This document shows, in pieces, positions 1 to 58,719 of a DNA stretch of 64,000 nt (the stretch's first letter is position 1; each line of letters starts with the position of its first letter). Below the pieces are notes generated by a model that did not search any database, was not told where the DNA came from, and saw nothing but the letters and a program-made list of their open reading frames with translations. Made by a program: the position numbers and the translations under genes. Source of the DNA: Terramyces sp. JEL0728 (lineage: Eukaryota > Chytridiomycota > Chytridiomycetes > Rhizophydiales > Terramycetaceae); assembly GCA_027603945.1 (NCBI GenBank), contig JADIIU010000003.1, positions 303,594 to 367,593 of the forward strand. Direction: 5' to 3'.

Positions 1-2083
1 CTTGTACAAAAAAGTTTCCATTTGATGACACTTCTGTTACCAAAACTTCAGTGATTTTAGCTTCAGTAACTTGCACACTAGCGATTTCTTCAACTACTTT
101 GTCAGCGGGATCATAGTTTGTCCAGATATTCTTTCTAGCAGCTTTTGCAGAAGTTTCGGCATCCATTAACTGATTGGCAAATGGCGATTGTGAAGCTGAA
201 TATTCATGAATGGTGGCCAACCCTTGCTCAAGGATTAGTTGAGCATAGTTTGTTGGTTGTCCATGATGTACCGGAACAAATACGGTTCCAATGAATCCAC
301 CAACTTTATCCACACCTTCAATGGATACTTCCACATCTCGTTGGAATAGCTTACCATTTGCAAACGAAGCTGCTTCATTTCCATATGGCTCAGCTTTTTG
401 AGCTTCTGTCTTGCCAGCTTTTGGAGTTCTAATTCCAGATAAAACAAGCGTCAAGCGAAGGTTCTGAGGTGGTACGTAGACTCGAAATCTCGATCCAGAT
501 GCAACGTACTCAACGACACACTTCAATTTCCCTCCTCTTTGTAACTGGGCTAAATAGTTCTTTGCCTTTGTTGCATTTTCAGAAGCATCAATGGTTCTGT
601 GCACTGGAGCTTCCTTTGTGGAATGAATACCTTTGTTTGCAGAAGTTGCCTTTTCTTCAGCTTCCAAAAGTTTGTCATATGCAGAAGATCTATTGTGATC
701 GTCTTTTTTGTGTTTGATTACAGAGGCGTATCCTCTTGTAACTAGCATTTCGGCAATATTTACTTCACCTTTCAAAACAGAAGCACAGTCTCTCTTTTCG
801 TACTCTCCTTCGGCAGGCTTGGTATAATCAATTTTGACAGTAACTTTTTGGCCAATGAGTCTAGCTCGCAAGTATTCAACAGCATCAACGTAGTATCCGA
901 TATCAAAATCTTGTTCATTCTTTTGTCTTTTAGGGCCACGAATGCTGGAAAATCCAATTTTGCGTTCTTTTCCACCTACTTCAACATTGATAAGATCTGG
1001 ACCGATTATTTTCGTAACTACAGCCTGGAAATTGCTTGCATTTGTTGCTGTTTTAACAAACCCTTTCCATAATCTGAGTTGCTTGGCTTTAGCTGCTGCT
1101 TCACAGGATTTGTACTTTTCAGGGTTAGTTACAGAGGCCAAGTTCCAATCCAAGATTTTGGCGTAGCCTTCAGCAAGTAATAATTCAGCAATATTGCCAG
1201 CAGGATGCGAAATAGAGCCAAAGAATGCCAATCCTTGTCCTTGCCCTGAAACTGATTCGAAAAGGATTTTAATAGACCGTTGTAATAATCTGGCCTCGGT
1301 GAAATATTTTGCTTCTTCTGATAAAGGTTCAATAAGATCAGGAACCCCTGGAATATCTTTGCGATACACAGGAGCTTTGATGCCAGAGATTTGAACAGTT
1401 AGGAATTGATGCACTGAACCAATAATAGCGACAACGCGGAGTGTAGAGCCGTCTCTCACTTGCTCAACGATTGCTATGATTAGGAAAAAATACCATCCAC
1501 AGGAACATTCTTGTATTTTTCAAGAAATTGGCGCGGATCACTTTCAAAGCTGTAAGCGATTTGGCGCTTGCATTAAAAACGCATTACCAATGTATACGGT
1601 TCGTCTGACCAGATTCCTAATCTCTTGGATTTTGCGTGCTCTTCAAGCCCCAACAGATATTCTTGTTCCCTGATTGAGATAAATACTTACTCTGTAGGAA
1701 TCCGCTTTCCATCAGCTTGCTTGACCTTGACAAACCCATTCTTTGCCAATAATCTGGCGATATCGGTTTCTCCATCAATTGGATGCTGAACTTCCAAGGA
1801 TCCAAATTGCCTGTTAGGGGATGCGTATTCCAATTTATATCTGACTTGCTTGCCAACTAAGAGGTTGCGCAAGTATTCCCTGGAGTCATAAGCAAATGCC
1901 TACGTTAGTAAAATTTACCTCTTCTTCCACAGATTTATTTCCCAATCTTGGAGCATTAACGTTGCTCAAAGACAAGATCAATTCTGGAGGTGGACCATTG
2001 GTTGGTTTACCTCTTAGGATAACTGAATCGCCGGAAATGATGGATTTAATTGATGCGAAACCAACATTTGGAAATGCTGACAT
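1..2083 (-). CDS. SND1: Tudor-SN / SND1, N-terminal part
   Basis: Staphylococcal-nuclease/Tudor protein of RNA silencing complexes, RNA decay and transcription co-activation; cytoplasm and stress granules in other eukaryotes. About 667 residues are visible, covering the first nuclease-like repeats up to and including SN4; the Tudor end lies beyond the left edge. Typical family segments are GPPPELILSLSNVNAPRLG in repeat 1, EYLRNLLVGKQV, and later VEYLRARLIGQKV followed by IAEMLVTRGYASV. Start taken at the ATG at 2083; a second possible start lies 15 nt upstream. Four introns restore the frame: 1900-1918 (19 nt), 1670-1690 (21), 1567-1587 (21), 1474-1493 (20). The last visible exon, 1-1473, is uninterrupted. 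Family assignment is strong; the incomplete 3 prime end is only a window effect. Confidence 0.93.
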
Positions 2084-2314
2084 TTGAAAAAGCAACAAAA
2101 TTTTGCCACTGGACTAAAATATCCTAGCAACCAGGATTGCAAATGAAATTGGAATAGTATAGCCGGCAATCTATTCATAATGATATGTGGATCCAACGTG
2201 CGCGACAAACCACACGGTTTCTTATGGTTCAATACAAGAAATCCGAAAAGTATAAATCTATATCTACTTTTATTCTCCATCATTATCAAATTTTAGGTTA
2301 GAATCCACCTGATG

Positions 2315-4734: not shown

Positions 4735-4755
4735 CTGCTGAACGCGAAAATATTT

Positions 4756-6002
4756 TCAATATGTTTTATTGGCCAATCCATTGTACAGAGCATTGATTAA
4801 AGACCTTGGGTCTGATACAGGAACATCGCCCGCAGACTCCCAGACAATTACACCCTTCAACCCTTCCCTCCACACATACTCGCATTTTGCTTTTACAGAT
4901 CTAACAGAATCATATGAATTCAAGATTTTCCTCTGTCCATCATAAGAATAATGGGCTTGAGCAGCCTCGTCGTAGTATTCCTCCGCACCAGGTCTCGGTA
5001 AAGTCCTGTAATCGCACACTCCATCTTCCCAAGACTTGTCCGCAACAATTCCAAATGAAGGCTTGCCAAGGCCATCAGTATTTGCAAATCCTCTGGAATA
5101 AAATGCTGCTCCAATCACAATCTTATCTCTTGGGAAGCCAAGCGAAATATATGCTTTTACCGCTTGATCGATAGACGTTGGGCTATACGGAGTTGAATAT
5201 AAATTTGTGTGGTGCCCTGCTGAACATTGTCCATAGGACGAACTTGCCATGTCATAGGTCATAATATTAATGGATTCCAATAATCTTGCCATTACTGTAA
5301 GAGGCAGCGCAGTCATGGCACTTGGCACACCAGTGACGCAGGCAGTAAGAGTAACTTGACTGAAAGGAGAGTGATCCAAATGATTCCGTAACAATTCCAG
5401 CAACAATCCAAAATTTACACCTAATTAAGGTAAAATACCATCATTCGGCGAGGCTGAATTCCCTTCTTTTCCATAGTTAGTTCCAGGAGGACTAATGTGC
5501 TCCCAATCAAAATCTAATCGGCTAATTAACCCAGGGAATTGGTGCAGTATGGCCATACAAGTTGCGACAAAAGCCAATCGGCTTTCTGGAGTACTTACTG
5601 CCTCTGAAAAGTGAGTAGAGAAGCTCCAACCACCAATACTCAATCCGAAATTGAATTTCCATCCAGCTTTCTTTAATTTCATAAACTGTCCTAGGTTCCC
5701 AAAGTACTCTCCTTGGCTTGCAGGCTGCTGATGATCAAGTGGCAGTACTGACTCTGCTTCGTTTGTATAACGCTTATCGGTATCAGACCATGGATCCGAG
5801 AATGCTGGAACATAATATCCTTGTGCATTCTTCTTTAAATCTAAAAATGAATAGTTTATATCGCTAATAAAGTTCACCGGCAACTCCTTGACTTGATAAT
5901 TCCTTCCGTAGCAGGCCCAATTCGTATGGTATACAATTAGTTTCTTTCCAGAGTCTGGGTTAATCAATTCGTACTCCAATTTTCTTGAAGTTTAGATTGC
6001 AT
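4756..6002 (-). CDS. GH18 chitinase-like glycosidase
   Basis: Family 18 glycosyl hydrolase, 402 residues. Seen: an SxGG-type strand (FGLSIGGWSFS), the active-site strand SRLDFDWEH with the acid/base Glu kept (the first Asp of the usual DxxDxDxE is Ser here), MTYDM, and FYSRGF near the C-terminal insertion domain, ending GVIVWESAGD. No signal peptide is visible, so it is not an obvious secreted enzyme; an intracellular or unconventional route is possible. Start: the ATG at 6002 is used because intron 5955-5974 (20 nt) links a short exon (MQSKLQENW) to the conserved core; without it the frame has only a TTG. Second intron 5421-5438 is 18 nt, the shortest placed with confidence in this window. 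The substrate, chitin or a related beta-1,4-GlcNAc glycan, is inferred from family. Confidence 0.85.
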
Positions 6003-8562: not shown

Positions 8563-8943
8563 TTAAAATGGCATATCTGGTTTTCTCGCTTCCTTTCCCT
8601 TCTTTCTTTCCAGTCTGTACTGCTCAATTCTCTTTGGCATACCTTTCATATTTTCAATAATCTTTTCCTCCCTGTTTTTCTTTTCAACTGGTCTCTTGTT
8701 GCCCTTTAGAATCAATTTCGGCTTCGTTTCTTCTGGAGGCGGAGGCAATCCAACGGAGCTGGGGTCAATTCCAGCAAACAAACATGTATTTCTGATTAAT
8801 TGCTGTTTTTGTAGTGAAATTCTTGGTGGTAGTATCCTTCCTTCCGCCGTTTTGAATGGTAAGAAATACTCCTTTGGCGGTGGAAATGTGATTGTTTTTA
8901 GTATCCAGCTGTTGGCCATATTCTTTCCAAATCGTAATGCCAT
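8563..8943 (-). CDS. Mitochondrial large-subunit protein mL59-like
   Basis: 126 residues, single exon, start at the ATG at 8943. It resembles fungal mL59 (yeast MRPL25 type): an FPPPKEYFLPFKTAEGRILPPRISLQKQ region corresponding to the family pattern of a Phe-Leu-Pro segment, a Gly-Arg turn, Pro-Pro, then Ser-Leu-Arg/Gln-Lys-Gln, followed by LFAGIDPSSVGLPPPPEET and a basic helix KGMPKRIEQYRLERKKGKE. The match is by pattern and gene neighbourhood, not by a strict motif, so another small basic mitoribosomal protein is possible. Convergent with uS16m. Confidence 0.55.
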   Translation of the reverse strand: MALRFGKNMANSWILKTITFPPPKEYFLPFKTAEGRILPPRISLQKQQLIRNTCLFAGIDPSSVGLPPPPEETKPKLILKGNKRPVEKKNREEKIIENMKGMPKRIEQYRLERKKGKEARKPDMPF

Positions 8944-9009
8944 TTTGTGATTGACAAAAAAAAAGTTCAAAAATAATAGACACTGAGGTGTTTATTCCGT
9001 TGATAAATA

Positions 9010-10592
9010 CTAGTTTTCCACTTCAGACATTGCAACCTTGTTTGACTTTTCGATCTTTGCATGAGCCATAGAACTGGTATGAGTACCTTCAGTCTTGGAA
9101 TACTTTTCTTTAGAAGCGCGACTGGTTGGTTTAGAGACAATCTTCATAGTTTCATTGATTCTAGTACTCAATGAAATGTGAAGAGAAACAAAAAATACAT
9201 AAAATCCAGTTCCATCTTGATAGGCCAAATCACTTCCCATCCAAGGCGTGCTTTTTCTGACATATCTGTTGAATTCAAAGCCGAAAATTGCAATTACTTG
9301 GCCGAGAAAGAGATACGGCAAGTACGGATCAGATAGGATCAACAATTTAATTTTTCGTTTGAAAGTTTTGTCGCCTGCTACTGCATTAATGAACATCAAC
9401 GAGATCAAGATTGGAGGAATGCAGTTCCAAATAAACATGAAGATTATCCAAATATTGGCTAATTTGGACCAGTTAACCAAGAACTGTTCGTAAGATGCGG
9501 GCATCGAATTGTACATGTAGTTGTTATTCCCACTATTGAAATAGTAGTCAATGTAGTTTCCACCATTCAAAAAGATATGCATTGCGGCTACGAATATCTG
9601 GATTGGATAAATCATGTATTTTCTAAGATTAGCTGAATTTACTGCGACTTGAAAAAGATGATAACATACAAGTTGCTTGTAACAAAAGTAGACAAAACCG
9701 TTCCAAGGTTAAAGAAAGTAGTTCTTGTTTCTGCAAACACAGCCATTTTTTCATTTTCAGTAAATATTGTCAGCCAGAATATCATTGACAAAATTGTCCA
9801 GATAACAATGCATAATTGGGAAATAACTACCACATAATTCAAAAACAAGGGACGTTTTTTCTTCACTATCGCAGCATGGATTGTCACAGCTGGTGGATAA
9901 AGCCCAATAAAAACTGCTAGCAGAAACGCGGCTGCACCAATATAATCTAAAGGCATTTTCCATTGAGGAACCAAGTTAGTTAACGGTGAATATTGGAGCC
10001 AGTCGTAAAACATTGTTGTCTGCTGGAATGTTTTCAGCTGAATTGTTACATTGCCTAAGTTTGGTGACGTAGTATTGATCGAGTTTACAGACATTTGAAT
10101 CGTTTCAAACGAACCGGTGCATCCAGCAGATACATAGTAAGTAAAAACACCAGCAGGGTTACATTTAAAGTGGTTGTCATGGCACACCCCCTCTTGAGAT
10201 AGCAGAAATATTCCCTTATACCCCAGTAGGGCCGAGTTGTCGTATAGGTCGGTTGGAGATAAAAAGCAATAGGTGTTACCATTCGCTGCTTTAGGAACAA
10301 CTGATTCGATATCATCAAAAGTGTCGAACCAATTCGTACTTCCGCTTTGATAGGGAGCCGAACCAGTGATGTCCAAAGAGTTAGTACACGCTGTCCCAGC
10401 AATCGGGACATAGCAGTTGTCAACGTCGTCCACTGCAAAATCAAAGGCATGGAACCTAAAATATGATGGCCAAACTTCATCTAACGTTGGGTCGTACGCG
10501 AATGGGTCGGAAATGTTAAAAACATAGATTGTTGATGGAGCTGTTTGACAGTACGGTGCAAAGAACTGGTTTTCAACTAGCAAAGCAGACAT
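9010..10592 (-). CDS. 7TM-type membrane protein with ectodomain, family A copy 1
   Basis: 520 residues after removal of a 20-nt intron (9623-9642). Order: about 210-residue N-terminal domain with several Cys and N-glycosylation sequons (for example NISDP, NTTSP), a juxtamembrane motif MFYDWLQYSP, then about seven hydrophobic helices and a charged Ser/Lys-rich tail. Two paralogues lie at 44.1 and 45.8 kb, and all share ALLVENQFF at the mature N-terminus and YVFNISDPFAYDP. The paralogues carry a signal peptide before ALLVENQFF, while this copy begins MSALLVENQFF at the only ATG that fits. I could not find an upstream exon encoding a signal peptide. The topology suggests a receptor or sensor; no known family is recognised. 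Divergent from the PPR gene. Confidence 0.75.
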
Positions 10593-13089: not shown

Positions 13090-13783
13090 TTAATAGTTTA
13101 TTGCACCACAGTCTTTGATTGTCAAGGGAACAATGGGTTGGTCTTTTGCTCCCGTTTTAATGGCGTGCATCAGGTACACTATCTCCATTCCTTCCACTAC
13201 CTTACCAAATACAACGTGATGACCATCAAGCCATGAGGTTTTTACAGTAGTAATAAAGAACTGGCTACCATTTGTATTTTTCCCCGCATTCGCCACTAAA
13301 TTAATAATAGCTACTAGATAATACTCCTGGCCCTTCATGCTTTAATTTGAAATTTTCATCATCAAATCGCGGCCCATAAATCGATCCTTTGCCGATATCG
13401 CCTCCTTGCACCATGAAATCCTTGATCACTCTATGAAATACAGACCCTTTGTATCCAAATCCGTTATACCCTGTCGTCAAGTTGTAAAAGTTTTCCACTG
13501 TTATCGGGACATAGTCTCCGTACAAACCCATCACAATTCTTCCCAATTCTTTATCGCCATGTTCGATATCAAAGTACACCAAGTGGCTAAATTCTGTTTC
13601 TTTGAATCCACTTGGTTTTGCAGGCTTCACGGCTGCATCAGACTTTGCCGAGCTGGTTACTTCCTTTTCTGCATGTGTATCGAATTTGAATGATGATTCT
13701 GCTGGTTTATCCATTGAGAGGTATGCAAATATACATAGGATTACTACAAATCCTATAAAGTAAATCCTTGCTCTGAGTTGCAT
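13090..13783 (-). CDS. Membrane-anchored ER cyclophilin (peptidyl-prolyl isomerase)
   Basis: 224 residues. An N-terminal hydrophobic segment ([19 protein letters not shown]) acts as signal anchor or signal peptide, followed by a 40-residue linker and a cyclophilin domain. Catalytic landmarks: [40 protein letters not shown], and [12 protein letters not shown]. One 19-nt intron, 13296-13314, splits the Met codon of SMANAG. Start: ATG at 13783; the frame is open further upstream but without ATG. Expected role: proline isomerisation during folding in the secretory pathway. Convergent with the PPR gene, about 185 bp between stops. Confidence 0.92.
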
Positions 13784-14550: not shown

Positions 14551-14834
14551 TTTTTGTTTCGGATTACACAAAGTCGGGCCAATCAACTTGTAGATGATTA
14601 TTGAATGGAAAGTTTTCGGAATAATAAAATAAATTTGAGATCAATAACCATAAATGGCAACTAGAAATTAAAGAACCTGGAAATTCTCAGCTGAGATTGG
14701 CATGTCAATTGTCAAACCAAGCCTTAGTATGCCCTCTTGAGTCAAGATGCCAAATTATTACAGGGTCAATGGTAAAACAAAATTATTTTTATTCAAAACT
14801 AACCTTTAGGCTTGCGGCTATTATTAACAAATTA

Positions 14835-17800
14835 TTACCGGGTGGTGTCGTAGATCCTAATAAGATGAGCTTGGCCATCCTCGCTCTGTGAGAACGCAAA
14901 TCCTCTATTTCGTTTACTTCTTTGAGTCAAGCGAACTTTTTGAACTTGTTTGCGGAATAATTCGGCTCTTGGAGTGTAGTCTGGTATGTTGTACTTGTAC
15001 ATTTCCTGAATAATATGGTAGTTTCTTGGATATGCTAGTCTCTTGAAGCTATGTTAATAGTGGATTACAATTTCCAGATAAAATCTCGAAAGTTTGTCAT
15101 CAAAGGAATGATAAAGATTGCCAGCCAGAAAGCCAAGCTCGCATACATTGGAGTGACAGTTCCTAATAATTCGGTGCCAACACCCAGCATAGGGCCAACA
15201 GTTGCATAGATCGGATACAGGATGAACCACAACAAAATGCTACCAAAGATTGCAAAGAATGTAAAGTTTACCCAGGTGTCTGCAACAAGAGCAGCTTTCA
15301 GAGTAATCGCAAGCAAGTCTGCTGTGAATACCATTTCACCAAATACCCAAATATTAGCAGTATTTCCATTACCCAGCATTTCTCCTTCGTTGTACATGCC
15401 GGCAAAGGAGTAGTACATTATCAACGAGTGCAAAAAGGAAGTGAAAATCCAAGCCCAGAAGGTAACCGTGTTGTAAAATTCATTTGTCTGGCCATTTCTA
15501 TACAATTGCGGATACTTGTCCAACATTCTTGCGTTTACAAATTGATCAAAAACACCGATAGACAAGGGTTGGAAAAATGCGAAAGCAATATTGTAGGAGG
15601 ATTGAGTCCAAGTTTCAAACAGTGTCTGACCAGAAAACCCATTGTCAAAAGCAAACCAAAATTGAATCAAATACAGAGTAATATTCTTGTAGAAAGAATA
15701 GAGAGCTACTTTGCAACATCTGGAATAAGCCCAGTTTCCATGCACTAGTAACAATTTCTTCAAGTATCGGAATTGAGCTATTGCAAAATCTGCACTTCTC
15801 GCTGCTTGCAAACCCTCCAAACCGCTAATACCAACACCGACATGTGCTGCTTGGATCATACTAACATCGTTGGCACCGTCTCCGATAGCTAAACTAACTG
15901 CTCCTTTTACGTTATTTCTAACCAATCTAACAACAAGAGCCTTTTGAAGAGGCGAAACACGACAGCAAATAACTGCCTTACACATTACTGCCAATTCCAA
16001 AAAGTACATTTTAACGTCATCTTCAAGAGCAAACTCCAAAGACTTTCCATCAATAATCAAAGCAATAGGCTAATTTAACAACCAAATACCTCTAGATTCA
16101 TATCATTGCTCTTCTTGATCTTGGTTTGAGGGATAAGATAGTTCATGTAAGGAACGCCATTAAAGTACTTCATAATTTTACCTGCCAAGTCTTCTTCTGG
16201 CGCTTGTATTCCCATACCAGTCCTGAGCGCTTGGAGTTTACTTTCCAAAAACTCTTTAGTTTCAAAATGGGTTAGCTCATTGCAAATAATAAGAGACATT
16301 TCATCAGTAATTAGCTTGCAAGAAAACCCGATATTGATGGCAGTTTCTTGACGATCCCCAGTTAGTACCCAAACCCTAACCCCTGCTTGAGATAGCGTGT
16401 GGATAGTGTCAGGAACACCATCTTGCAGTTTATCTTCAATTGCAGTAGCGCCTAACAATATCAACTCTCTTTCGATTAGTTCGGCAGCTTTCATTAGTTC
16501 TTCTCCTCTATTGTTGATCGTGGTTGCCGCCTTTTCATAAACCTGCGACCATGCCTTATATTCTTCATCCGAGATGTCTCTGTAAGCAATACACAAGGTT
16601 CTTAGACCTTCACAAGCATACTCCTCCAACAAGACACATGTTGGATCAACGTAAGGGTTGTTTTCTTTGGCCAATCTTTCCAATATAACAGTATCAGCAC
16701 CTTTGATGTATAATTTGATTTTCCCATCAGGAGTACGAACGAGAGCCGACATTCTTTTCCTTGTCGAGTTGAATTCGTTGATTTGCAAGATTTCCCATTC
16801 CTGATCAATATCTTTTCTATTGAAAATGACGGATTTCGGCTTTCTAGTGTGGAATGTATATCCCAACATTTGTGCTCCTTTAACTAATGCTGCTTCGTCA
16901 GGAGAGGACGCTTGGAAAACAATCTTTTTTGGATCTTCCTCGCTAACCTCAGGAATTACTGTGTGGCATACAGCTAATAGCTGGAGGAATTCTTTGATAA
17001 CATGGGAGGTTTGGCCATTTAGTTCATGGTCCATCAATCTGTTGTAGTCGTACCATCCCGTCATCTTACCTTCAGAATCCTTTTGCAGCTTTTTGTTGTC
17101 AGGAACAACATCAGCGTAGGCTATCCCGCCAATTGTAAGTAGCTTAAATTCCATAATATTGCACGTAAGTGTTCCGGTTTTGTCGGAAAACACGTAATCA
17201 ATTTGTCCAAGTTCCTCAACCAAGGAAGATGTTCTAGCAGTTGCAGGTGTGTCATTTAGTTCATAATACAGATCTTCGTCCGAGCTGATTAATGTTCCAA
17301 TTAAAAACTTTACCATATCCAATGTAACAATCAAACTTTGTTAGTTGGAAATACCTCATTGGAATCAAGTTGTTGTACAAGATGACATAGGTGATGATAT
17401 TGCCAGGGAACAATAGCCAAGCGTTATTTGGATTGATCATGAGAATATTTGATTCAAAGTGAGACCCAAGTTGTCTGCGAAGGGTGCCAAAGGCGCAAAC
17501 AATCGACATTGCAACGAGAATAAAAAACAGATAAATGATGTGTTTGTTTACCAAGGTGTCTAATTGCGTACTTTTGATTGGAGTTTTAGTTGCGTTTTTC
17601 ATCAATTTACTTTCATGTCCTGTGAAAACAACAATGCCGTAAGCCCAGCTGGTGTTTCTCAGCATTGCTCCCTAGATTAGTGACATTTACCCTTAGTAGC
17701 AATTGATCTGGGTTGAGCGGGATTTCTTTGGCACCCAATCTCAATGTTCCTTCGAACGTGTACAGGCTGTTGTTTGGCAATTCGCATTTTATGACGCCGT

Positions 17801-18427
17801 CCATATTTGCAACCATGTCAGGTGATAAAACCTCATTTGTTTCTTTTAATGCTTGTCTGATTTTCAAGTTTGTTTCGCTGCCATTAGCAATATTTACCCA
17901 TCCAAGTTACTAGTTTCGATATATACTAGTCCGTCCGGCTCACTGGAGCTAATCAAGACCAAATCCGCTGGGAAATAGGTTGAATTATCTATTCTTACAA
18001 TGTCTCCAACTGCGAGTTCGTTCCACTTCTTTGGAACAAATGTGGTTCCAAAAAGGGTATTGACCAATCTATTGTTTACCACCTTATCTTGCGCGTGCCT
18101 CTTTAAATCTTCAAGGATTTCCTTTGCTGCAGACACTGCTGTCACGATCGAAAGGGGAATCACTGTGCCAAATTTGTTTGTCGGTGAAAGATCGCCGATT
18201 TGCTATCGTTAATTTTATGAAACCATAATTATCGCAATAAACAGAAAGAACAAGTTGGCATATTTTGAAAACTGCTCGTACAAAAACTTTGGGATGAACG
18301 AGTATAGTTGATATTTTCCGGTTGTGATACCGTTGTGCAAGAACTTTTGTTGTTTGTTTTTTATCGGGTCGTTGATGTGAATTAGACGATGTCTGGCGTA
18401 CTTGCTTTCATCGTCTCCTGAGAACAT
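14835..18427 (-). CDS. P4-type ATPase (phospholipid flippase, Drs2/Neo-like)
   Basis: 1157 residues after splicing. All P4 landmarks are present: SPTNKFGTVIPL after TM1-2, NLDGETNLKIRQAL (actuator loop), NNLIPMSLIVTLD (the PISL-type motif reads PMSL), FSDKTGTLTCNIMEF with the phosphorylated Asp, ASSPDEAALVKGA, KGADTVILERL, GDGANDVSMIQAAHVGVGI, ten helices and the ending GFAFSQSEDGQAHLIRIYDTT typical of the Drs2 group. Six introns: 18203-18223 (21 nt), 17878-17897 (20), 17672-17690 (19), 17336-17354 (19), 16070-16089 (20), 15049-15068 (20). Exons sum to 3474 nt in frame. Start at ATG 18427 (MFSGDDESKYARH). It would flip aminophospholipids in Golgi, endosomal or plasma membranes with a CDC50-type partner. 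The short cytosolic N-terminus is notable. Confidence 0.95.
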
Positions 18428-31965: not shown

Positions 31966-31966
31966 A

Positions 31967-38643: not shown

Positions 38644-40451
38644 ATGTCCACGCGTGATTTCAAGAATGACGTCTCGCTCGAAATTAACTTTCTCGACAAA
38701 ATGGCAACGAATACAACTGTTTCCAGCACTAGAGTAGTAATGTCGGTATTCGAAAAATACCAAAAAGAACGGTTATTGTTTGTACAAACTATTGCAGATC
38801 TGGCTTCGCGTGAAAGCAACATTGATGCTCTTCAGTCAGCAGGAGTGTTATCGCTCTTGCGGCCACTCTTACTCGACACTGTTCCAGCAATTCAGCAAGC
38901 AGCAGCATTGGCATTAGGCAGGTTGGCAAACTATAACGAAGAATTGGCTGAAGCTGTGGTGGAGTCGGATATCCTCCCACAGCTAGTCTTTTCACTGAGC
39001 GAACAAAACGTATTGTATGTATTGATTAAGATTTTAGCGATTCTACAAGAAAGCAGCCGCATTTGTATTGCGCGCGGTTGCGAAACACTCTGCTGAATTG
39101 TCCCAGGCTGTGGTTGATTCCGGCGCGTTAACTGCTCTTGTAAGTTGCTTGGAAGAATTCGATCCTGGTGTTAAAGAATCGGCGTCCTGGGCTCTCGGGT
39201 ACATTGCAAGACATAATGGTGATCTTTCCCAGGCAGTGGTGGATGCTGGAGCAATCCCACTACTTGTACTATGCGTTCAAGAACCTGAATTGTCTCTTAG
39301 AAGAATTGCAGCATCTGCTTTAAGCGACGTATCGAAGCATTCACCTGAACTCGCCCAATCTGTTGTAGATGCAAACACCATTTCGTTTATCGCTCCACTA
39401 TTATCTAACCCTGACGCTAAACTAAGAAGACAAGTTTGCTCTGCACTCTCCCAAATTGCAAAACACACGATTGATTTGGCTGAAACTGTTGTAGATGGGG
39501 ACATTTTCCCAAATGTGCTGACCTGTCTAAAAGATGATGATGGCTACGTACGAAAGAATGCAGCAACTCTTATCTGCGAGATCGCAAAACACACACCAGA
39601 GCTTGCGCAATTAATCGTCAACTCTGGAGGCGTTGCTGCAGTTGTGGACTATGTCAACGAATCTACCGGATCTGCGCGCCTTCCTGGCGTGATGACTTTG
39701 GGCTATATCGCAGCGTTCTCTGAAACATTGGCTCTCTCTGTTATTGTAGCGAAAGGCGTACCGCCACTGTCTAAAGCACTTGAGGTTGAAACTGAAGAAC
39801 ACATTAAGGTATTGATCAATTAACGGCAGGCTGCGTGCGCATGGGCTCTTGGGCAAATCGGCAGACATTCTCCAGACCATGCAAAAACTCTCGCCGATAA
39901 CTCTGTGCTTCCAAAACTTTTGGCCGTATTATCTATGACCACGGATGATAGTGAAGAAGCTGGAGCCGATTTGAAAACCAAAACCAAACGGGCAATTAAA
40001 TGTGTACTGGAAAAGACGTTGCAAATGGAAGCTTTGGAACCACTTTTGCAAACCTCTACCCCAGCAGCTATTCTGAAATATGTAGTAGCTCAGTTTGCAA
40101 AGATCTTGCCTCACGACGTTGCTGCCAGACGTGCATTTGTCACATGCGGCGGTCTTCAAAGAGTGCAGGATATTGCAGCCTCGTATACAGAAAACAATGC
40201 TCTCACTGGAACCAAGTTGGGAGAAGCAATCAGAACCATTAACGAATGCTATCCAGAAGAAATCGTAAGATACTTTTCTCCAGGATACTCTGCGACTCTA
40301 TTGGAAAAGGTACCTTTTACTAAGTTAGATTGATGAATATGGCAGAATGCAAGATTTTAATATGTCTGGTGCCAAGCAAAAGCCTTCAATTGCAAACAAC
40401 ACACAGGCAGGCGATGCGCAAAAACCAATCTCACAGAGTATCCCCGCCTAA
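38644..40451 (+). CDS. SPAG6: SPAG6 / PF16 armadillo-repeat central-apparatus protein
   Basis: 579 residues (human 509), with about 30 extra at the N-terminus and 35 at the C-terminus. Armadillo repeats throughout: LRPLLLDTVPAIQQAAALALGRLANYNEELAEAVV, RFYKKAAAFVLRAVAKHS, DPGVKESASWALGYIARHNGDLSQAVVDAGAIPLLV, HIKAACAWALGQIGRHSPDHA, and the ending CYPEEIVRYFSPGYS. It stabilises the C1 central-pair microtubule, so it marks a 9+2 motile flagellum. Introns: 39010-39037 (28 nt, long for this genome), 39809-39829 (21), 40310-40328 (19). Start at 38644; ATG 38701 is an alternative closer to the human start. Begins 40 nt after EXOC1, same strand. Confidence 0.95.
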
Positions 40452-40497: not shown

Positions 40498-41368
40498 TTA
40501 CGCAAATTCTTTTGGGAATTTCGAGTTCTTTTCAAAAGTTTTTTGTCTTTGCTCCAGCAGCATTCTTTCGCATTCCTCCTGAATACCATCTACCAGCCCT
40601 GTAACAGTCTCGAATGCAATTTCTTTGATTTCAACTGGATCAAGCGATTCAAAGATATCTATCCTCAGAAGCAATTACCTATGCTGGAATTAAAAGTATC
40701 TTCATTTTCCTTTTCAAGTTGAGCAAGTCTTTCTTCCTTGGCTACACTTTCAGCTGTCCTTGCCTCACTTAACGGTGGATAATACGGTGGGATCTCTAAC
40801 CACTTGGACCTCAAATTTGTCTCAATCTCCTGCTCTCCAGTAAACAGGTGCTTGATTGCATGGAAATGTTGGACTAATCTACATTAAACTCTACTAACGT
40901 CATTATTCCATACTCGACGATGACTTTACAAGTATCAAACGTCAATCCATGTTCGTTGTTACTTTCCAAATCAGCCCTGAATTGTTTAAACACCAGGTTC
41001 TTGTATTCGTTCAAGCAATAATTCTCATCCTTGAAGCCATTCTCTATCCATTTGTCCAAGGTAAACTTGTGAATCGAAAAAAATAGACTGATTTGCTGAT
41101 TAGTAAATCCATGCGTTTTTCCATGGGCATATATCGAATGGTAAGTCGACAATTTGACACCTAAATGAAAATCGTCTTTAAATCCCTGCAGATCAAATAT
41201 TTCCGAGAAATATCTACAGTCAGCTAGGAAATACATAATTTCAGCTCCCGGATCTTGTAGTTTTTCCAAATCGTCCAGTATTTCATTGGTCAAATAAAAC
41301 CAAAGCATGTTATCCTCATCCCTTTTCTTTGCTGTATCTACCCTCCTTGGATGAGGTTTCTTTTCCAT
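40498..41368 (-). CDS. CFAP119: CFAP119 (CCDC189)-like flagellar protein
   Basis: 276 residues. It follows the plan of CFAP119: MLWFYLTNEILDDLEKLQDP, a helical region with LSTYHSIYAHGKTHGFTNQQISLFFSIHKFTLD, then GLTFDTCKVIVEYGIMT and LVQHFHAIKHLFTGEQE, matching the family block where a tyrosine/phenylalanine-rich helix precedes a Thr-Pro/Glu turn, and a C-terminal Glu-rich coiled coil. Introns 40879-40898 (20 nt, donor GTTAGT) and 40659-40678 (20 nt). It is convergent with SPAG6, 46 bp between stops, so two flagellar genes are neighbours. Family match moderate. Confidence 0.7.
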
Positions 41369-44116: not shown

Positions 44117-45713
44117 ATGCTATTTTTGCTTACAAATGTGCTACAAGCAGCTTTATTAGTAGAAAACCAATTCTTTGAAACGAAATGCAACGGAGCGCCG
44201 GATTCAATTTATGTATTTAATATTTCAGATCCATTTGCGTATGATCCTGCCCTTGACGAAGCACTCCCTTCATTTTTTCGATTTCATTTCGAAGAATTCA
44301 CCGTGGGACAAACTGATAATTGCTATGTGCCAATAGCAGGAACAGCGTGTACATCATCGCTGCGGCCAGACTTGTCGTTTCCTTACAACAGCGGCAGTAC
44401 TTCTTGGTTTGACAGCTTGGATAATATAGAGTCTGTGGTTGCAAAAAGTGCAAATGGAATCATTTATTGTGAAATCTATGCTTCAGATTTTGATGATCCG
44501 TTTGCACTATTAGGTTACAAAGCAATTTTTTTACTTTCAAATGACAGAGTCTGCTACGACAGACATTTCAAATGTACAGTCTCTGGATCCTTTTCTTACT
44601 ATGAGCTGGACGATTGTAAAGGCAACCCCACATTTTCCTCGTCAGTTAGTACTCAATTATCAGCAGAGTCTTCTGTCCTGGGGAATATCACGCTCAAAAG
44701 CACAGCATTCACAAATGCGACAATGTTTTATGACTGGATACAGTATTCCCCAACTGCAGATCTAGTTCCTCGATTTGATTTGGCGTGGGATTACATAGGA
44801 GCCTCGTTATATGCAATTTCAATGATGTTGGCATTGTATATCCCAATGCATACCTGCTTCAGGCTTTGGAAAAAGAATCAACCACTGAAATTAATGCATT
44901 ATGTGGTAGTGTCTGGTCAAGCATGTATGTTTATTTGGATCACGACTGCAATGATTTATTGGCTAATGATATTTGTAGATAACGAAGGAGTGGCAATATT
45001 TTCCGAGATTAGAGATCTTTTCTTCAATATCGGGACTTTGCTGTCGTCAGTTTCTGCTGGGATCTTGCTTGTCACTGCTGTATACAACAACGAAAGGTCT
45101 GATTGCTTTAACTTTAGAAAATATTTTTATATTACCATCCTGTTTTTAGTGTGTGTGCATATTGCGCTTAATGGAACAAACTACTTTGAATATTACTACA
45201 ATGGCGGCGACAACAACGTGTTTTACTCTGGATCTCCAACAACAATCAATTCGGTCACAGCATGGGAAAATCTAGGCTATTTGTGGATCGTGTTTCTTTT
45301 TGCTTGGAATTTCTCGATTCCGTTAGTGATATCATGGAGATGCTTGACACTAAAGTACGACAATTTGAAAAGCGTCCAAAAGTTTCAGATGATGCTAGCT
45401 GCTGATCCTCAATTGCCCTACTTATTCGCGATTCAACTGTTCTGTCATTGGGTATTCCTTCATTTCGTACACGCTCTTCAGCACATCTTGGCTCGGAAGT
45501 AACATGGAGTTTCAAGATTGTAAATCTGTCGGGATATTTTTCATGATTCTCCACGTAACTTTCTCCGTGAGGATAAATGAATGTGTGCAAAAAGTATTCA
45601 AAGTAAAAATCACGCCAAAGAAGGTTCCATCCACCACCAGGCTGTCAAAAGAACTATCCAGCGCAAAAGTATTGGAAGACTGCGAATGCAAAAATTATAA
45701 TTTTCAAACGTAA
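44117..45713 (+). pseudogene. 7TM-type membrane protein family A copy 2, frameshifted
   Basis: Same plan as copies 1 and 3: signal peptide MLFLLTNVLQA, mature ALLVENQFF, ectodomain with Cys and sequons, MFYDWIQYSP, then helices. Intron 45097-45117 (21 nt, donor GTCTGA, no stop inside) is placed because the paralogues have an intron at exactly this codon. Near 45437-45443 the reading frame shifts by one base: before it the protein reads PQLPYLFAIQLF; the paralogous continuation (VIGYSFI, then WLGSNMEFQDCKSVGIFFM) is found in another frame, and the tail to 45713 remains open. So helices 6-7 are encoded but out of frame. Either a recent lesion, a sequencing error, or a 43-nt intron that would delete helix 6. 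Confidence 0.7.
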
Positions 45714-45756
45714 ATTTCCAGCAATAAAAACGTCATTTTTAGTTCTGTTTCAAATT

Positions 45757-47314
45757 ATGCGGATATTATTCCTACACTTAACACACGTAGTTCTAGGAGC
45801 TCTTTTGGTAGAGAATCAATTCTTTCACGATCTGTGTAGCGGCCCTCCAAATACAATATATGTTTTTAATGTATCCAATCCATATGCCTATGATCCTACA
45901 TTAAATGAAACCTGGCCCTCTTTTTTCAGATTTCACTTTGAAGAATTGACTGTCGGTGATACGGATAACTGTTATGTTCCTATACCCGGAACAGCGTGTA
46001 CTAGCACACTGCGACCAGATTTGTCGTATCCTTACAAAAGCGGAAGCACGTCGTGGTATAAAGATTGGGATAGTATGGATTCTGTTGTTCCAACAAGTGC
46101 AAATGGGCATCAATATTGCAAGATAGCTGCTTCAAACGTTAATGACTCCAGTTCACTGCTAGGTTATAATGGGATATATTTTTTAGCAGATGATTCGATA
46201 TGCTACGACAATCATTTCAAATGTAATCAATCTGGATATTTCTCGTACTTTGTCGAGAGCGGATGTGCTGGAAATAGCGGTCTATCATTCAATATATCGG
46301 AATATTCCATTTCAGAGTCAGATTTATTGGGTAACATTACCGCCGAGATGACAGTATTTCATCAAGCATCAATGTTTTACGATTGGGTGCAATATACACC
46401 GTCCACGTATCTAGTACCACATTTTACAATTGCATGGGATTACGTCGGAGCAGTTTTCTTTGCTCTCGCTTTGCTTCTGGCTGTATATATACCGGTTAGT
46501 ACAATTTACAGATTATGGAAGAAAAAGAAATCAATTAACTCTTATCATTTCATTGTACTTTCATCCCAGTTGCTAATATTTCTGTGGGTTCTCTTGGCAA
46601 CAATATTCTGGCTGACGGTATTTATAGATTTAGAGAAAATGGCTATTTTTGCAGAGCTACGGGAAGCCTTCTTCAACATAGGGACTTTGATGTCGGTTAT
46701 TTATGCTGGAGTACTTTTGGTCACTGCAATATACAAAAGCAGTCAGTACTTTGAATTAATATAGGAAATATTACACACTGGTAATTGCTTTCCTACTCCT
46801 TGCTCATATACTGTTGGATGGCCCGAATTATCTAATGTACTACTATAATGGGGGAGATAATGGAATATTTTATACTGGAAATCCAGAGACTGTATTTACA
46901 ATCACCACATGGGAAAACTTTTGCTATATATGGATACTGTTCTTGTTTTTATGGAACTTTTCGATCCCAATTTACATCTCGGTAAAGTGTCTGTCGCTCA
47001 AATACGAAGAGCTGAACATTATTCAAAAGTTGCAGCTCGTGGTAGACGCAGACCCACAACTGCCATATCTGCTTATTTCTCAATTTTTTGGTGTTGTGGG
47101 TTATCTGGCGAGTTCATTTGTACAACTCAACACCTCCCTTCTTGGAAGTAACATGGCGTTTCAAGACTGTACTGGTGTTTGTGTATTTTTCATGATACTG
47201 CACCTTACATTCTCTGTCAGAATTAACGACTCGATCAAGAAAGTATTTACAGTAAAAAGTAGAGGAGATAAATCGTCAGTCAAAGGATCTTCAATCGCAA
47301 CGCAAAGAAACTAA
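45757..47314 (+). CDS. 7TM-type membrane protein family A copy 3
   Basis: 512 residues, intact. Signal peptide MRILFLHLTHVVLG, then ALLVENQFFHDLCSG. The ectodomain contains paired Cys (DNCYVPIPGTACTS), several sequons, and MFYDWVQYTPS before helix 1. Seven hydrophobic segments follow, with FFNIGTLMSVIYAGVLLVTAIY as the third and FQDCTGVCVFFMILHLTFSV as the seventh. One 19-nt intron (46746-46764) at the same site as in the other copies. It begins 43 nt after copy 2. Orphan family; a GPCR-like sensor is suggested by topology only. Confidence 0.78.
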
Positions 47315-47537
47315 TGGAACAACTTTGGGCTGAATAAATATCTCTTTTAATAATTAGATTTGGGTAACGTCATTGGTAGGAAACGCTTCTCCATACAAGG
47401 GATTCAATGTACCACCACTAGTTGGGGCTATATGGAGAGATAATCAGGTGCAGCATTCAAAGTGATATCGTTCACCGAGATGGAAAGATTGTCACCAACA
47501 ATGCAGATACAAAGTTATTTTCCGCTATTAATAGAAT

Positions 47538-50157: not shown

Positions 50158-50895
50158 ATGTTGAAAGCTAAAATTGCCCCATCCATGTTGTCGAGCGATT
50201 TTGCAGCGCTTGCTGATGAATCAAAGAGAATGAAGGACTGCGGGGCCCATCTATTGCATATGGATGTCATGGTAATTCATCCTAATTCAAGGACGGCCAT
50301 TTCGTACCAAATCTCACTCTTGGTGCACCAATTATTAAATCCCTTCGCAAACATACAGATATGTTTCTTGGTAATCAATACTAATGAAGATTGCCATCTA
50401 ATGGTCACCAATCCAGAAAAGTGGGTCAAGGATTATGCAATGGCAGGATGTTCCAGCTACACTTTCCACATTGAGGCAACTGGTACTTTATATGTAATGC
50501 AGATAAACCTGCTGATTTGATTGCACTGGTCAAAGCAACCGGAATGAAAGTTGGGATTGCTGTAAAACCAAAAACCCCAGTGGAAACAGTAATACCATTC
50601 TGCAAGTCAGTCGATATGATCCTCATCATGACTGTTGAAGTAATTATATCTAATTTAGCCTGGATTTGGTGGCCAAAAAATGATGCCTGATTGTTTGGAA
50701 AAAGTTAAACTATTAAGGTCCAAGTTTCCTCTTCTGGATATCCAAGTTGATGGGGGAATTGACGTATCCAATATTGAACAAGTCGCTGCAGCTGGTGCCA
50801 ACGTTATCGTCGCTGGAACTGGGGTTTTCGGACATGCGAGTCCATCTGAAGCAATTTCTATTATGACTAAAGCAGTCGAAAAGAATTTGAAATAA
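50158..50895 (+). CDS. RPE: Ribulose-phosphate 3-epimerase
   Basis: Interconverts ribulose-5-phosphate and xylulose-5-phosphate in the pentose phosphate pathway. 219 residues, complete TIM barrel: KIAPSMLSSDFAALADE, LHMDVMDGHFVPNLTLG, DCHLMVTNPEKW, TFHIEAT, GIAVKPKTPVE, MTVEPGFGGQKMM, VDGGIDVSN, VAGTGVFG. The metal and catalytic residues (His, Asp, His, Asp) are all there. Introns 50272-50291 (20 nt), 50371-50389 (19), 50483-50502 (20), 50640-50658 (19). Exons total 660 nt in frame. Confidence 0.96.
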
Positions 50896-54229: not shown

Positions 54230-54417
54230 TATGTAAAGTTGGATTTGCATTCATAGCCAGTCGTTTGCAAAGGATCTGTTGCCTTTTACAGGAGACATGG
54301 CCGGCCTCAATTATGTTTCGCGTTAATTTGACAAAATATTGACAAAATATTCTGGTAGAAAACCTGTTAAAGTCTCTGATTTCGACAACCATAAATAAAA
54401 ATGTATATTAAAACTAT

Positions 54418-55868
54418 TTATCTTTTTGCAGAAGCAATTTCAGGCGGAGCTGTAGCTCTTGCTCTCCTTGGGCCAGACTTTGGTGCAGATTCTGGCTCTT
54501 CTACTATTTCAGGGCCTGGTGCTTCTGGCAGCACTTCATCTTCAAAAACCTTCTTTTTCCTTCTTGCCTTGGCTACTGGGCCAGAAGTAATTAGCGATTT
54601 TGGTTTGAGTTCCAGAACAGGTAGCTTTTCTTGTATTGGCAGTTCTTCAAATGTTACAGTTTTCTTTGGTTTTGGCAAATCTTCTGCCTCGGATTCCTTT
54701 TCATCCTGTTGCAATTCTTGTTCCGCTTTGACTCCTTCTGTAATTTCTCGTTTAACAAACATTGAATCTGGAGGCTTGTTGACATACTGTGCGTTTTCTA
54801 AAGTGCGCTTTGCATCTATACTAGCAAGAATCCTATGTCGTAACTCTGGAGGCGCTTTCTTTCGTTCTCTGATTGCTCTGGTAACTAAGTGATGGTGCTT
54901 AGCTTCCTCTTGCTTAAATTTTAGCTTGATATGTTTATGTGTCATCCCAGGAAACATATAACTGATCATTTTCATATCTGTTCCGAAATACGACAGTCCC
55001 TGCTGTTAAATCGTAAATACATCGTAAAACTTTGCAGTCATTTGATCTGTCCACTTTGAGGCCGATAGTTTGTGTTTCCTTCTGAATGAAGCTGATGTGA
55101 CATATCTCAATTGTGCATCTTCTTCAATAACGTCTCCTTCTTCGATAAATTCTTGTTGCGCTGGCATTTGAAGAGATGCTTGATTAAACACCAACTGTCC
55201 ATCCACCAATACGAATGCTTCCGCAGGAGCCGATCTAGATCAATATGCAGTTACTGTGGCTGCAGAACAACTTTGATTTTGACATCCTCCTTTACATCCT
55301 CTTCCGACTTTTTACGTTTTCTAGCCTCTTTTAGTTCGAAAAGTCTCGCTTCTTCCCTTTTAGATTTTTTGCCCTTAGGGAATGGGTGGGTAATCAGTTC
55401 AGTCATAGTTGCTGTTTCAATATTAATTTCTGGGTTTGTAAATATTGGTGGTATATCAATTGGAGCGTGCAGTGAAGCTGAGAGTGGGGCTATACTTTGT
55501 CGCCGCTGCGGGATTGATATCACACTCCCTTTCTGAATAGGCTTTGAGGTTGATTTGTGTGCATCACTTGCTGGAGTGGCAATTACTGTTCCTTCACTCA
55601 CGGTATCCAGGACAGGTGGTGAGGTGAACGTCAATACTGGCGATTTCAATCCTTTTGGAAGGCCTGATATTGATAATGATCTTTTCCGTTTCACTGCTGG
55701 CGCATTTTCCGCTTCTTCCTGTTCTGGAGCATTTGAGTTGCCTACTGGAGGAGCTGTTGTGGTTGCACTTCCCACATTAGGCTTCCTTCTCGCCGCTTTC
55801 GGTTTTATGCTTGGTGCAAACTTTGAAGTTCCCTTATCGACTCTTGAAGTTGTGAGTTCCACCACCAT
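54418..55868 (-). CDS. BDP1: TFIIIB subunit BDP1 (B double prime)
   Basis: 469 residues. A disordered N-terminus, then YVTSASFRRKHKLSASKWTDQMTAKFYDGLSYFGTDMKMISYMFPGMTHKHIKLKFKQEEA, which is the extended SANT domain of BDP1, and a basic/acidic tail. BDP1 with TBP and BRF1 recruits RNA polymerase III to tRNA, 5S and U6 promoters. Introns 55235-55254 (20 nt) and 55000-55020 (21 nt). Start ATG 55868. Exons total 1410 nt. Confidence 0.92.
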
Positions 55869-55935
55869 TTGAGTTTGTTTTGAAAAAGTCAAAAAAATTC
55901 ACAAAACAAAAAGTTGATATTTACAGGCTATTTAT

Positions 55936-56784: not shown

Positions 56785-56976
56785 TTCTAATTCTGTCTGG
56801 CGTTTTTAATATTTATAATGGCTTAGGGGGCACAGTTGCCTTCCATTAATGAAACACTGGTTTTGAACAAATCAGGCCCCTCGAAAATTAGGCAGGCTTT
56901 CAACTTTTAATGAGCAAATGCATCCGTCATACACTAATGCTCATTAATAGGATTGGTAAAAAAATATATTTGCTGA

Positions 56977-58719
56977 TTAATTTGGTTCAAATCCAACACA
57001 GTTCAACACACGCATAATATTGGTAGAACCTGCAATTTGTTCCAAAACGCCAGAAGTCACAACCACTGCATCACCTTTTTGAGCCATCCCCATTTTGACA
57101 CCCCACAGCATTGCACGATGGATGATGTTTTCCGTTCCCATCATAGATTCAACAACCAATGGATATATGCCTCTTAGTACTTGGCATTGACGGGCTAAGT
57201 TAGACAATAGAATACCAACTTGATGAGACGATGTAACAGCCAAAACTGGAGCAATTGGGCGATATTTGGAGATGTTAATGGCAGTAGCACCACTTTGGGT
57301 TAATACTACAATAACAGCAGCATGGACATCCCAGCTGGTTTTTACTATGATTAGTCTGCTCAATTGTTGTTCAAAAGCGCCAACTAAATGCCGCACAGAG
57401 TCTAACTCATCCATGTATCTCTACATCAGAGGCTCCCTGACTCTTATCATCATGACAACATGTGTAAACATACCTGCATTTGCAGCAACTGCCTCAGAGA
57501 CTGATATTGGGAGTTGTAAATGTCTTCTTAGAGATGGATATAGTTCAGAGTAGTTGATATCTGCTTCTGCTTCTCGGCAGATTCTAGCCATCATAGATAC
57601 AGCCAGGGTTGGGAAAGCTCCCTTTGCAGTTTCACCAGACAGCATGACACAATCGGATCCATCCAACACGGCGTTTGCAACATCGGTAGCTTCTGCTCTG
57701 GTTGGACGTGGGTTTACAATCATAGACTCCAACATTTGGGTGGCAGTAACTACAGGTTTGCCAGCAATGTTGCATTTTCTAATCATCATCTTTTGGAATC
57801 TAGCAACTATGATTAACAAAATGCACCTTGTTCGACAGGAATCTCTACTCCCAAATCACCCCGAGCAACCATGATACCATCAGACGCATCCAAAATTTCG
57901 TCGAAATTGTCTAGACCTTCTTGGTTTTCAATCTTTGAAATGATTTGGATTCCAGTCCCCTTGATCAGATCTCTGATTTCATTAACATCAGATGCTTTTC
58001 TAATGAAAGAAGCAGCAATAAAATCTACATTATTTTCAATCCCGAATTGAATATCGGCTGCATCTTTCTTTGTAATAGCAGGGAGGTCAATGATCTTTCC
58101 AGGTAAATTTACACCTTTTGTTTCGCCCAAAACACCGTCGTTTTCTACAGTGCAGACAACTTGCATTTTTGCAGTATCGACGGATTGAACAACCATCCCA
58201 ATGAGACCGTCATCAACCAAGATTCTATCACCTGCAACAACGGTGGTAGCTAATGATTTGTAAGTAGTTGCAACTTGAGTAGAATCCCCCAATCGGGATT
58301 CATCATTGTGGAACGTAAAGGTACTTCCAGCAACCAAATTCTTATCGCAGTGATCAACCAACTTTCCTGATCTAATATTAGCGAATGGCATACCGAATTT
58401 CCGGTCCTTTGGTGTCCAATAATACGGCAACAGTTTTTGGAGACTTTGACGATGAGAGATAGGATCGTAGGTTATCGACGGTTTTTTGGTGATACTAGGT
58501 TATATACATGGTACTTCATGGGTTCCGTGCGAAAAGTTCATTCTCATTACGTTCATACCAGCGTCAATCAACTTTGTAAGCGCTTCGGTAGACTGAGTTT
58601 TTGGACCTTGGATAAAAATTTAGTTACCGATAGTACAGATGATCTTGCTTTTTATCTGTACCGGGCGAGCTATTTTCAGATGATTTCTTACTAGATTGTT
58701 CGATATACGAGGAGTTCAT
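56977..58719 (-). CDS. Pyruvate kinase
   Basis: Last step of glycolysis, phosphoenolpyruvate + ADP to pyruvate + ATP. 502 residues: [96 protein letters not shown], and [29 protein letters not shown]. Catalytic Lys of ISKIEN and the metal-binding Glu/Asp are kept. Six introns: 58670-58691 (22 nt), 58607-58627 (21), 58495-58514 (20), 58372-58393 (22), 57807-57826 (20), and an outlier 57345-57473 (129 nt). Exons total 1509 nt. Start ATG 58719. Confidence 0.96.
57345..57473 (-). other. Outlier 129-nt intron in pyruvate kinase
   Basis: It separates EAVAANA from [10 protein letters not shown], which are contiguous in the family. Donor GTATGT, acceptor GACTAATCATAG. It contains ATGATGA about 20 nt in and a CTGA about 20 nt later, but no closing D box near the 3 prime end, so a C/D snoRNA is not established. 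Confidence 0.85.

Follow-up and report, generated by a model that had tools for sequence, protein, structure and literature searches.

The introns of fungi are usually several times longer than 20 nt. Genomes with introns near or below that length have been described elsewhere: chlorarachniophyte nucleomorph introns are 18-21 nt long (cited in PMC10245619), mikrocytid introns are 16-17 nt, with 224 introns in Mikrocytos and 17-19 spliceosomal proteins reported (PMC10245619), and introns of the heterotrich ciliate Stentor are 15-16 nt with the branch adenosine at position 10 or 11 (PMC9505925). Introns of about 25 nt, with a constraint on lengths divisible by three, are found in Paramecium and Nyctotherus (PMC5014332). 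In Cryptococcus neoformans mean intron lengths are 56-63 nt (PMC11913375, PMC8476143); the first of these reports gives an average of 56 nt, terms introns below 60 nt ultrashort and has a 20-40 nt bin in a figure. A 23-nt Trichomonas intron was termed one of the shortest known in 2025 (PMC12316389), and a pan-eukaryotic survey of minor introns left out introns below 30 bp in all species (PMC10639083). Here we analyse a 64,000-nt stretch of the genome of the chytrid Terramyces sp. JEL0728 (the window), in which protein-coding genes are interrupted by introns with a modal length of 20 nt, not far from the shortest recorded in any organism. We propose, with a probability of about 0.95 and predicting from genomic sequence alone, that these are ordinary U2-type introns of the major spliceosome, most of them shortened to the physical floor of the Terramyces spliceosome.

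The window covers bases 303594-367593 of a contig of 367,593 bases (C3), in a genome of 15,016,339 bases on 231 contigs. The predicted EXOC1 protein from the window is 99% identical to the public protein HDV01_004203 of Terramyces sp. JEL0728. After Terramyces its closest matches are two Boothiomyces proteins, followed by Kappamyces, Polyrhizophydium, Globomyces, Entophlyctis and Batrachochytrium, and Boothiomyces belongs to the order Rhizophydiales, family Terramycetaceae. Two flagellar genes, SPAG6 and C1a-32, lie in the window. The host is a true fungus, a chytrid (Chytridiomycota, Rhizophydiales), Terramyces sp. JEL0728; Terramyces is a soil saprotroph.

Introns were called with our own gene finder in the window and in a further 200 kb taken from ten contigs, together 264 kb (less than 2% of the genome); one of the ten contigs is C3 itself, sampled about 184 kb away from the window. 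For the control runs the codon model was trained only on 91 uninterrupted open reading frames (ORFs) of at least 200 codons, and introns of 10-120 nt were allowed at a flat cost with the two terminal dinucleotides as the sole motif. With GT...AG ends this motif-free decode gave 284 calls, of which 143 were at 18-22 nt and 76 at exactly 20 nt. When 19 decoy dinucleotide pairs were run with the identical model and costs, each gave 5-22 calls at 18-22 nt and 0-10 at 20 nt. The GT...AG excess at 18-22 nt is therefore more than sixfold over each of the 19 decoys.

We also ran a motif-aware decode, with motifs learned from the first set and a broad two-part length prior that placed half of its mass on 14-30 nt and half on the remainder of 12-150 nt. 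This gave 418 calls, 336 of them at 18-22 nt, distributed as 4, 77, 165, 63 and 27 introns at 18, 19, 20, 21 and 22 nt. Elsewhere there were two calls at 16 nt or less, one at 17 nt, 20 at 23-30 nt and 59 above 30 nt. With a wholly flat length prior 280 of 419 calls still fell at 18-22 nt, and in the 200 kb beyond the window 264 of 326 calls did. Throughout the sample, most introns are thus shorter than about 30 nt and fall within a narrow range, as in other genomes with ultrashort introns. Short introns number 1.54 per kb in predicted coding sequence and 1.27 per kb of genome, and extrapolation to 15.0 Mb gives about 19,000 short introns, an estimate drawn from less than 2% of the genome. Intron positions are spread along genes, with 157, 103 and 76 introns in phases 0, 1 and 2. 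An in-frame stop codon is present in 55 of the 63 21-mers and 113 of the 165 20-mers; since detection favours introns that break the frame, no test of lengths divisible by three is usable here.

Of the 38 gene models that the decode made within the window, 29 contain introns. They hold 92 calls, with 72 at 18-22 nt, 35 at exactly 20 nt, four at 24-28 nt and 16 above 30 nt. An earlier note on this DNA, made from its letters, had counted 84 introns in 28 genes, 79 of them at 18-22 nt and 35 at exactly 20 nt; the last figure is the same as ours, and the others differ. The note had them running from 1474 to 58691, and these ends hold: 1474 is the lower coordinate of a 20-nt intron and 58691 the end of a 22-nt intron of the pyruvate kinase gene.

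The short introns share a consensus consisting of a donor GTA(A/T)TT, the sequence Y-T-R-A-Y round the branch adenosine and a (T/C)AG end. A clear branch site was found in 266 of the 344 introns of 17-24 nt, of which 245 have the branch adenosine at position 14, 15 or 16 and 250 have 4-7 nt after it. In the 20-mers a clear YTRAY is present in 124 of 165, with the adenosine mostly at position 14-15 and 5-6 nt before the end. The length distribution has a steep lower wall, with 77 introns of 19 nt against 4 of 18 nt. Two arms appear to add up to the floor: some 14 nt taken up by the 5' splice site and the branch helix, and about 5 nt running from the branch adenosine to the end, which makes 19. 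The introns show what is expected of the U2 type: GT...AG ends are favoured over other dinucleotides, and the branch adenosine lies in a YTRAY complementary to U2, whose GUGUAGUAUCUG stretch is intact.

We held 33 junctions in six genes against homologues (14 in EXOC1, 3 in SPAG6, 3 in a replication factor C (RFC) subunit, 4 in ribulose-phosphate 3-epimerase (RPE), 4 in a P4-ATPase and 5 in pyruvate kinase). The introns at these junctions are 19-22 nt long in 31 cases, 28 nt in one and 129 nt in one. The EXOC1/Sec3 gene (35362-38603, + strand) has 14 introns and was aligned with 11 public proteins. Thirteen junctions fit the first model. The fourteenth intron, at 37758, was 34 nt in that model, and the later motif-aware decode, unaided, made it 19 nt (37758-37776). 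Since 10 of the 11 aligned proteins keep the residues SDQLK that the 34-nt call had swallowed, this intron is 19 nt long. The first three junctions fall in a variable part of the protein. At the first (35591-35609, 19 nt) an IKKGTK-like junction is found in several relatives, at the second (35723-35742, 20 nt) several relatives have a one-residue gap beside the junction, and at the third (35839-35857, 19 nt) LSEKYN is kept in both Boothiomyces proteins. The remaining introns, also placed by alignment, are 36173-36192 (20 nt), 36319-36337 (19), 36570-36589 (20), 36700-36718 (19), 36875-36894 (20), 37007-37026 (20), 37526-37546 (21), 37861-37881 (21), 38221-38241 (21) and 38362-38381 (20).

In SPAG6 (+ strand) removal of the introns at 39010-39037 (28 nt), 39809-39829 (21 nt) and 40310-40328 (19 nt) gives a protein that aligns gap-free with Boothiomyces SPAG6 over 560 residues with 17 differences. 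The RFC subunit, of the human RFC4 or yeast Rfc2 type, has gap-free junctions at 31060-31079 (20 nt), 31379-31397 (19 nt, called as 88 nt in early decodes) and 31549-31569 (21 nt), all on the + strand. In the RPE gene (+ strand) the junctions at 50272-50291 (20 nt) and 50640-50658 (19 nt) are gap-free, the intron at 50371-50389 is 19 nt and restores CHLMVTNP where the decoder had called 46 nt, and the third junction, at 50483-50502 (20 nt), coincides with a loop whose length differs by one residue. Four of the seven junctions of the P4-ATPase gene (14799-18427, - strand) are visible in an alignment with Drs2 and all four are gap-free: 17336-17354 (19 nt), 17672-17690 (19), 17878-17897 (20) and 18203-18223 (21). 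The other three are calls of the decode; 14818-14838 (21 nt) and 15049-15068 (20 nt) lie outside the displayed alignment, and 16070-16089 (20 nt) adjoins an unaligned stretch and was not counted as checked. Pyruvate kinase (- strand) has gap-free junctions at 57195-57215 (21 nt), 57807-57826 (20), 58372-58393 (22) and 58495-58514 (20), and also at 57345-57473, where the intron is 129 nt and a clear exception. In its N-terminal part two further introns, 58607-58627 (21 nt) and 58670-58691 (22 nt), were missed by the decode and read by eye.

To these can be added a 1,146-residue coiled-coil protein encoded at 26278-29817 (+ strand) by a gene with five short introns, at 26438-26456 (19 nt) and, each 20 nt long, at 28706-28725, 29005-29024, 29184-29203 and 29367-29386. 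Our prediction, made before we saw the public Terramyces sp. JEL0728 protein HDV01_004198, is letter-identical to it.

Homology also bears on the longer calls. An early reading, that many introns exceed 30 nt, was ruled out wherever homology could test it, in EXOC1 (34 to 19 nt), RFC (88 to 19 nt) and RPE (46 to 19 nt), and the 129-nt pyruvate kinase intron was kept. Two of the 16 window calls above 30 nt were checked in this way, the RPE call, which became 19 nt, and the pyruvate kinase call, which is real. Judging from these alignments a minority of longer introns exists, with the 28 and 129 nt examples backed by homology.

A natural comparison was available on two further contigs, C199 and C111, which carry near-identical copies of one locus, either alleles or recent duplicates. 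In 2,280 bases of exon the copies differ by 16 substitutions and no indel. In 142 bases of intron there are two 1-nt indels and no substitution. The two indels affect separate genes, each being the difference between a 21-nt and a 20-nt intron, and either would shift the reading frame if the segment were translated. In 684 bases outside the gene models there are three indels and four substitutions. The numbers are small; homology was not used in this comparison and motifs enter it only through the gene calls. Further locus pairs of this kind would yield an intron mutation spectrum.

Public gene models of relatives may carry traces of the same introns. The Boothiomyces EXOC1 models of two species are without 3 and 5 stretches, and all 8 touch Terramyces intron sites. 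Random placement does as well in 0.005 of trials for the one and 0.0006 for the other; the two species are not independent. This test covered 7 of the 11 aligned EXOC1 proteins. Deletions touching intron sites numbered 0 of 6 in Kappamyces, 0 of 0 in Polyrhizophydium, 0 of 1 in Entophlyctis and 0 of 9 in Gorgonomyces, and in Batrachochytrium dendrobatidis the single deletion is at an intron site (p 0.46). In the coiled-coil gene, gaps occur at 3 and 2 of the 5 junctions in the two Boothiomyces, whose proteins are only 50% identical. We read the Boothiomyces EXOC1 gaps as indirect signs that gene finders may have stumbled on tiny introns at shared positions. HDV01_004203 itself lacks three residues of our EXOC1 prediction at both 35591-35609 and 35839-35857, two junctions where it is probably wrong, having used 28 nt for 19 nt. 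Since the public gene models implicitly contain tiny introns, their sequences are not new, whereas the observation itself seems to be.

We searched the genome for components of the splicing machinery. U2 was found with 140 bits and a conserved branch-pairing stretch (GUGUAGUAUCUG), and U5 with 86 bits and an intact conserved loop. Downstream of the U5 gene there are two tRNA matches with identical scores (L025, 1901-1982 and 2330-2411, + strand). All six splicing proteins that were searched for (Prp8, Slu7, Prp18, SF1, U2AF2 and U2AF1) are present. The U2AF2 model and a partial U2AF1 model themselves hold introns of 19-20 nt, and introns were called at 19, 15 and 17 nt in the candidate SF1 model. 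Yeast biochemistry had suggested to us that, with some 6 nt between branch and acceptor, Slu7 and Prp18 could have been lost, but both are present; loss of U2AF1 or SF1 was likewise ruled out when both were found. The searched early-recognition and second-step proteins are all there, so the splicing machine is not gutted, and a spliceosome stripped of recognition and second-step factors, of the mikrocytid or microsporidian type, does not describe one that keeps SF1, U2AF1, U2AF2, Slu7 and Prp18.

That the segments are spliceosomal introns with a mode of 20 nt, as the earlier note had held, is supported by the reading frame, the splice motifs, junction homology, the decoys and the natural indels. 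Its further statement that donor, branch point and acceptor nearly touch is confirmed by the crowded branch geometry. Several observations weigh against our interpretation. The introns are predictions from genomic sequence, and the calls of the motif model were fed back into its training. In the motif-free decode the decoys total 165-290 calls each against 284 for GT...AG, so that calls of that decode outside the 18-22 nt peak are largely chance, and the decoy GT...AA reaches a total score of 10116 against 10146 for GT...AG, with 22 against 143 calls at 18-22 nt. Among the 20-nt introns 41 of 165 are without a clear YTRAY. In the motif-aware set 59 of 418 calls exceed 30 nt; four such calls from various decodes were tested by homology, of which three became 19 nt and one was real. 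Three EXOC1 junctions and one RPE junction have small gaps nearby in some homologues. Finally, U1 was not found in the genome by covariance model, nor was U6 by covariance model, by three patterns with up to 3 mismatches or by BLAST at E<=10, where the query was a human U6 and the covariance searches score best candidates only. We take these absences to reflect limits of search or assembly, a reading that is unproven. Any one of three things would account for the negative result with U6: a gap in the assembly, divergence, or introns within its gene. Rfam U6 matches on C199 and C111, both below the family cut-off, were rejected because they straddle a tiny intron of a protein-coding gene.

How might a spliceosome work on such introns? 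U6 would follow U1 at the 5' splice site and U2 would follow SF1 at the branch site, and a 20-nt intron would leave few free bases between the two helices. U1, SF1, U2AF and U2 would probably not all sit on 20 nt at once and may instead hand over in sequence, with splicing proceeding by intron definition and the AG recognised directly beside the branch helix. With no room between branch point and AG, a polypyrimidine tract there would be dispensed with. Old introns may have lost bases through deletion bias or selection until they reached the floor, and this shrinkage would have occurred at least partly before Terramyces and Boothiomyces split. Because Stentor works with its adenosine at position 10 or 11, 14 would not be an absolute limit but the limit of the Terramyces machine; perhaps the 5' arm stops at 14 nt because a strong branch consensus is kept.

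We lean, with modest confidence, towards a wider reading in which a fungus whose set of splicing factors is complete, in an order (Rhizophydiales) whose other members would have ordinary introns, drove most of its introns, perhaps 19,000, to the mechanical floor; no polypyrimidine tract between branch and AG would be needed, and 14 + 5 nt would be the minimum substrate of an unreduced spliceosome.

Among other explanations the one that survives best accepts the same introns and explains their length by selection directly favouring fast splicing or an economical genome, and not by deletion bias against a functional floor. Lengths are somewhat more concentrated at 20 nt than independent arms would predict (124 introns observed against 95 expected, an excess that misassigned branch points inflate), but selection of this kind is inseparable from deletion bias in sequence data, and we consider it possible though doubtful. 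A second explanation, that the introns are recent introner-like insertions of a fixed-size element and not shrunken old introns, appears improbable. A fixed size near 20 nt would suit a size-limited insertion mechanism. However, there is no identical pair among the 336 short intron sequences, for which only exact identity was compared, and the Boothiomyces EXOC1 model deletions at the same sites suggest that the positions predate the split of the genera. Thirdly, the segments might be excised from the DNA or skipped by the ribosome, with no spliceosome involved, as in ciliate elimination or programmed bypassing. The uniformity in length is as tight as in some DNA-elimination systems, but the segments carry spliceosomal donor, branch and acceptor motifs, the genome has U2, U5, SF1, U2AF, Slu7 and Prp18, and to our knowledge fungi have no germline-soma elimination; we regard this as very improbable. 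Least credible of all, and in our view already refuted for the bulk of the introns, is the idea that the segments arose as artefacts of assembly or sequencing, or as frameshifts in pseudogenes, with GT and AG at their ends by chance. Such errors would not give GT, YTRAY and AG at fixed spacing, favour GT-AG at 18-22 nt more than sixfold over each of 19 decoys, or coincide with the spots where the spliced protein aligns to homologues.

Additional introns in the window were placed by the decode. A Tudor-SN-like (SNase) gene (- strand) has introns at 1474-1493 (20 nt), 1567-1587 (21), 1670-1690 (21) and 1900-1918 (19); the Pfam SNase match, residues 38-147 of the spliced protein, spans only those at 1900 and 1670. 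Two genes on the - strand were named by reading alone, a putative chitinase-like gene with introns at 5421-5438 (18 nt) and 5955-5974 (20 nt) and a putative cyclophilin-like gene with one at 13296-13314 (19 nt). NOSIP (- strand) has introns at 34519-34537 and 34869-34887, both 19 nt; its RING match (187-229) spans the first, at residue 203, and no match spans the second. The flagellar C1a-32 (CLAMP) gene (- strand) has introns at 40659-40678 (20 nt), 40879-40898 (20 nt, 35 nt in an early decode) and 41214-41234 (21 nt), and the CLAMP match (74-164, on the early model) spans only the middle one. In a gene for a BDP1-type Myb protein (- strand) introns were called at 55000-55020 (21 nt) and 55235-55254 (20 nt), the former, at residue 277, spanned by a Myb_DNA-bind_7 match (255-329).

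The 129-nt pyruvate kinase intron (57345-57473, - strand) contains a box C/D-like unit made up of ATGATGA, a 6-bp terminal stem and a TTGA D box. Such a unit occurs in 1 of 34 calls of at least 70 nt, against a random rate of 0.00045. Rfam support for it is negligible (E 0.7-1.3), and at curated cut-offs Rfam gave no match in the window or the 200 kb. Long introns may perhaps survive where they carry a small nucleolar RNA; we offer this as a lead only. Separately, 8563-10592 (- strand) and 44117-47465 (+ strand) hold an apparent multi-copy membrane-protein family with shared motifs such as LVENQFF and ISDPFAYDP. In the latter, tandem copies are apparently merged by the decoder, which placed five of its calls above 30 nt there.

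In the open-access literature, as far as our search of it reached and with subscription journals outside its scope, we found no account of tiny introns in Terramyces, Boothiomyces or Chytridiomycota, and in the sanchytrid genome paper introns come up in the references only. The earlier note had known of no fungus-like organism with such introns. The host is a true fungus, and public models already splice such introns. The precedents named there, the nucleomorph and the heterotrichs, are valid, and the mikrocytids, with introns of 16-17 nt (PMC10245619), belong with them.

Genome-wide ultrashort introns were previously found in ciliates, a relict nucleus and intracellular parasites, so that shortness could be attributed to odd nuclei or to reduction. 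With the searched splicing proteins all present, Terramyces would separate intron shrinkage from spliceosome reduction, and almost the same length floor would have been reached independently in another kingdom. Many chytrids are in culture, and the minimum intron would become testable in them. Surveys that omit introns below 30 nt (PMC10639083) would miss such introns, and the Boothiomyces EXOC1 model deletions suggest what missed introns may do to protein sequences.

Compared with the systems described so far, the chlorarachniophyte nucleomorph is alike in having almost the same length range and a narrow distribution, but it is what remains of an endosymbiont's nucleus and has more than 800 introns, whereas in Terramyces the introns are in the main fungal genome, with its flagellar genes, and extrapolate to about 19,000. 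Mikrocytids share a uniform length at the physical minimum, but they are parasites with 17-19 reported spliceosomal proteins, whereas in Terramyces six of six searched splicing proteins were found. Cryptococcus neoformans is likewise fungal and intron-rich, is credited with the highest share of introns below 60 nt among the fungi compared and has some introns in the 20-40 nt bin; its average is nearly three times longer, and no genome-wide mode near 20 nt is described in the parts of the reports consulted. Paramecium and Nyctotherus, like Terramyces, have a genome-wide ultrashort class, but they are ciliates and their introns are longer. Stentor also has many tiny introns with the branch adenosine at a fixed place. 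It is a ciliate, however, with a 5' arm of 10 nt rather than 14 nt and no strong branch consensus, whereas Terramyces keeps YTRAY.

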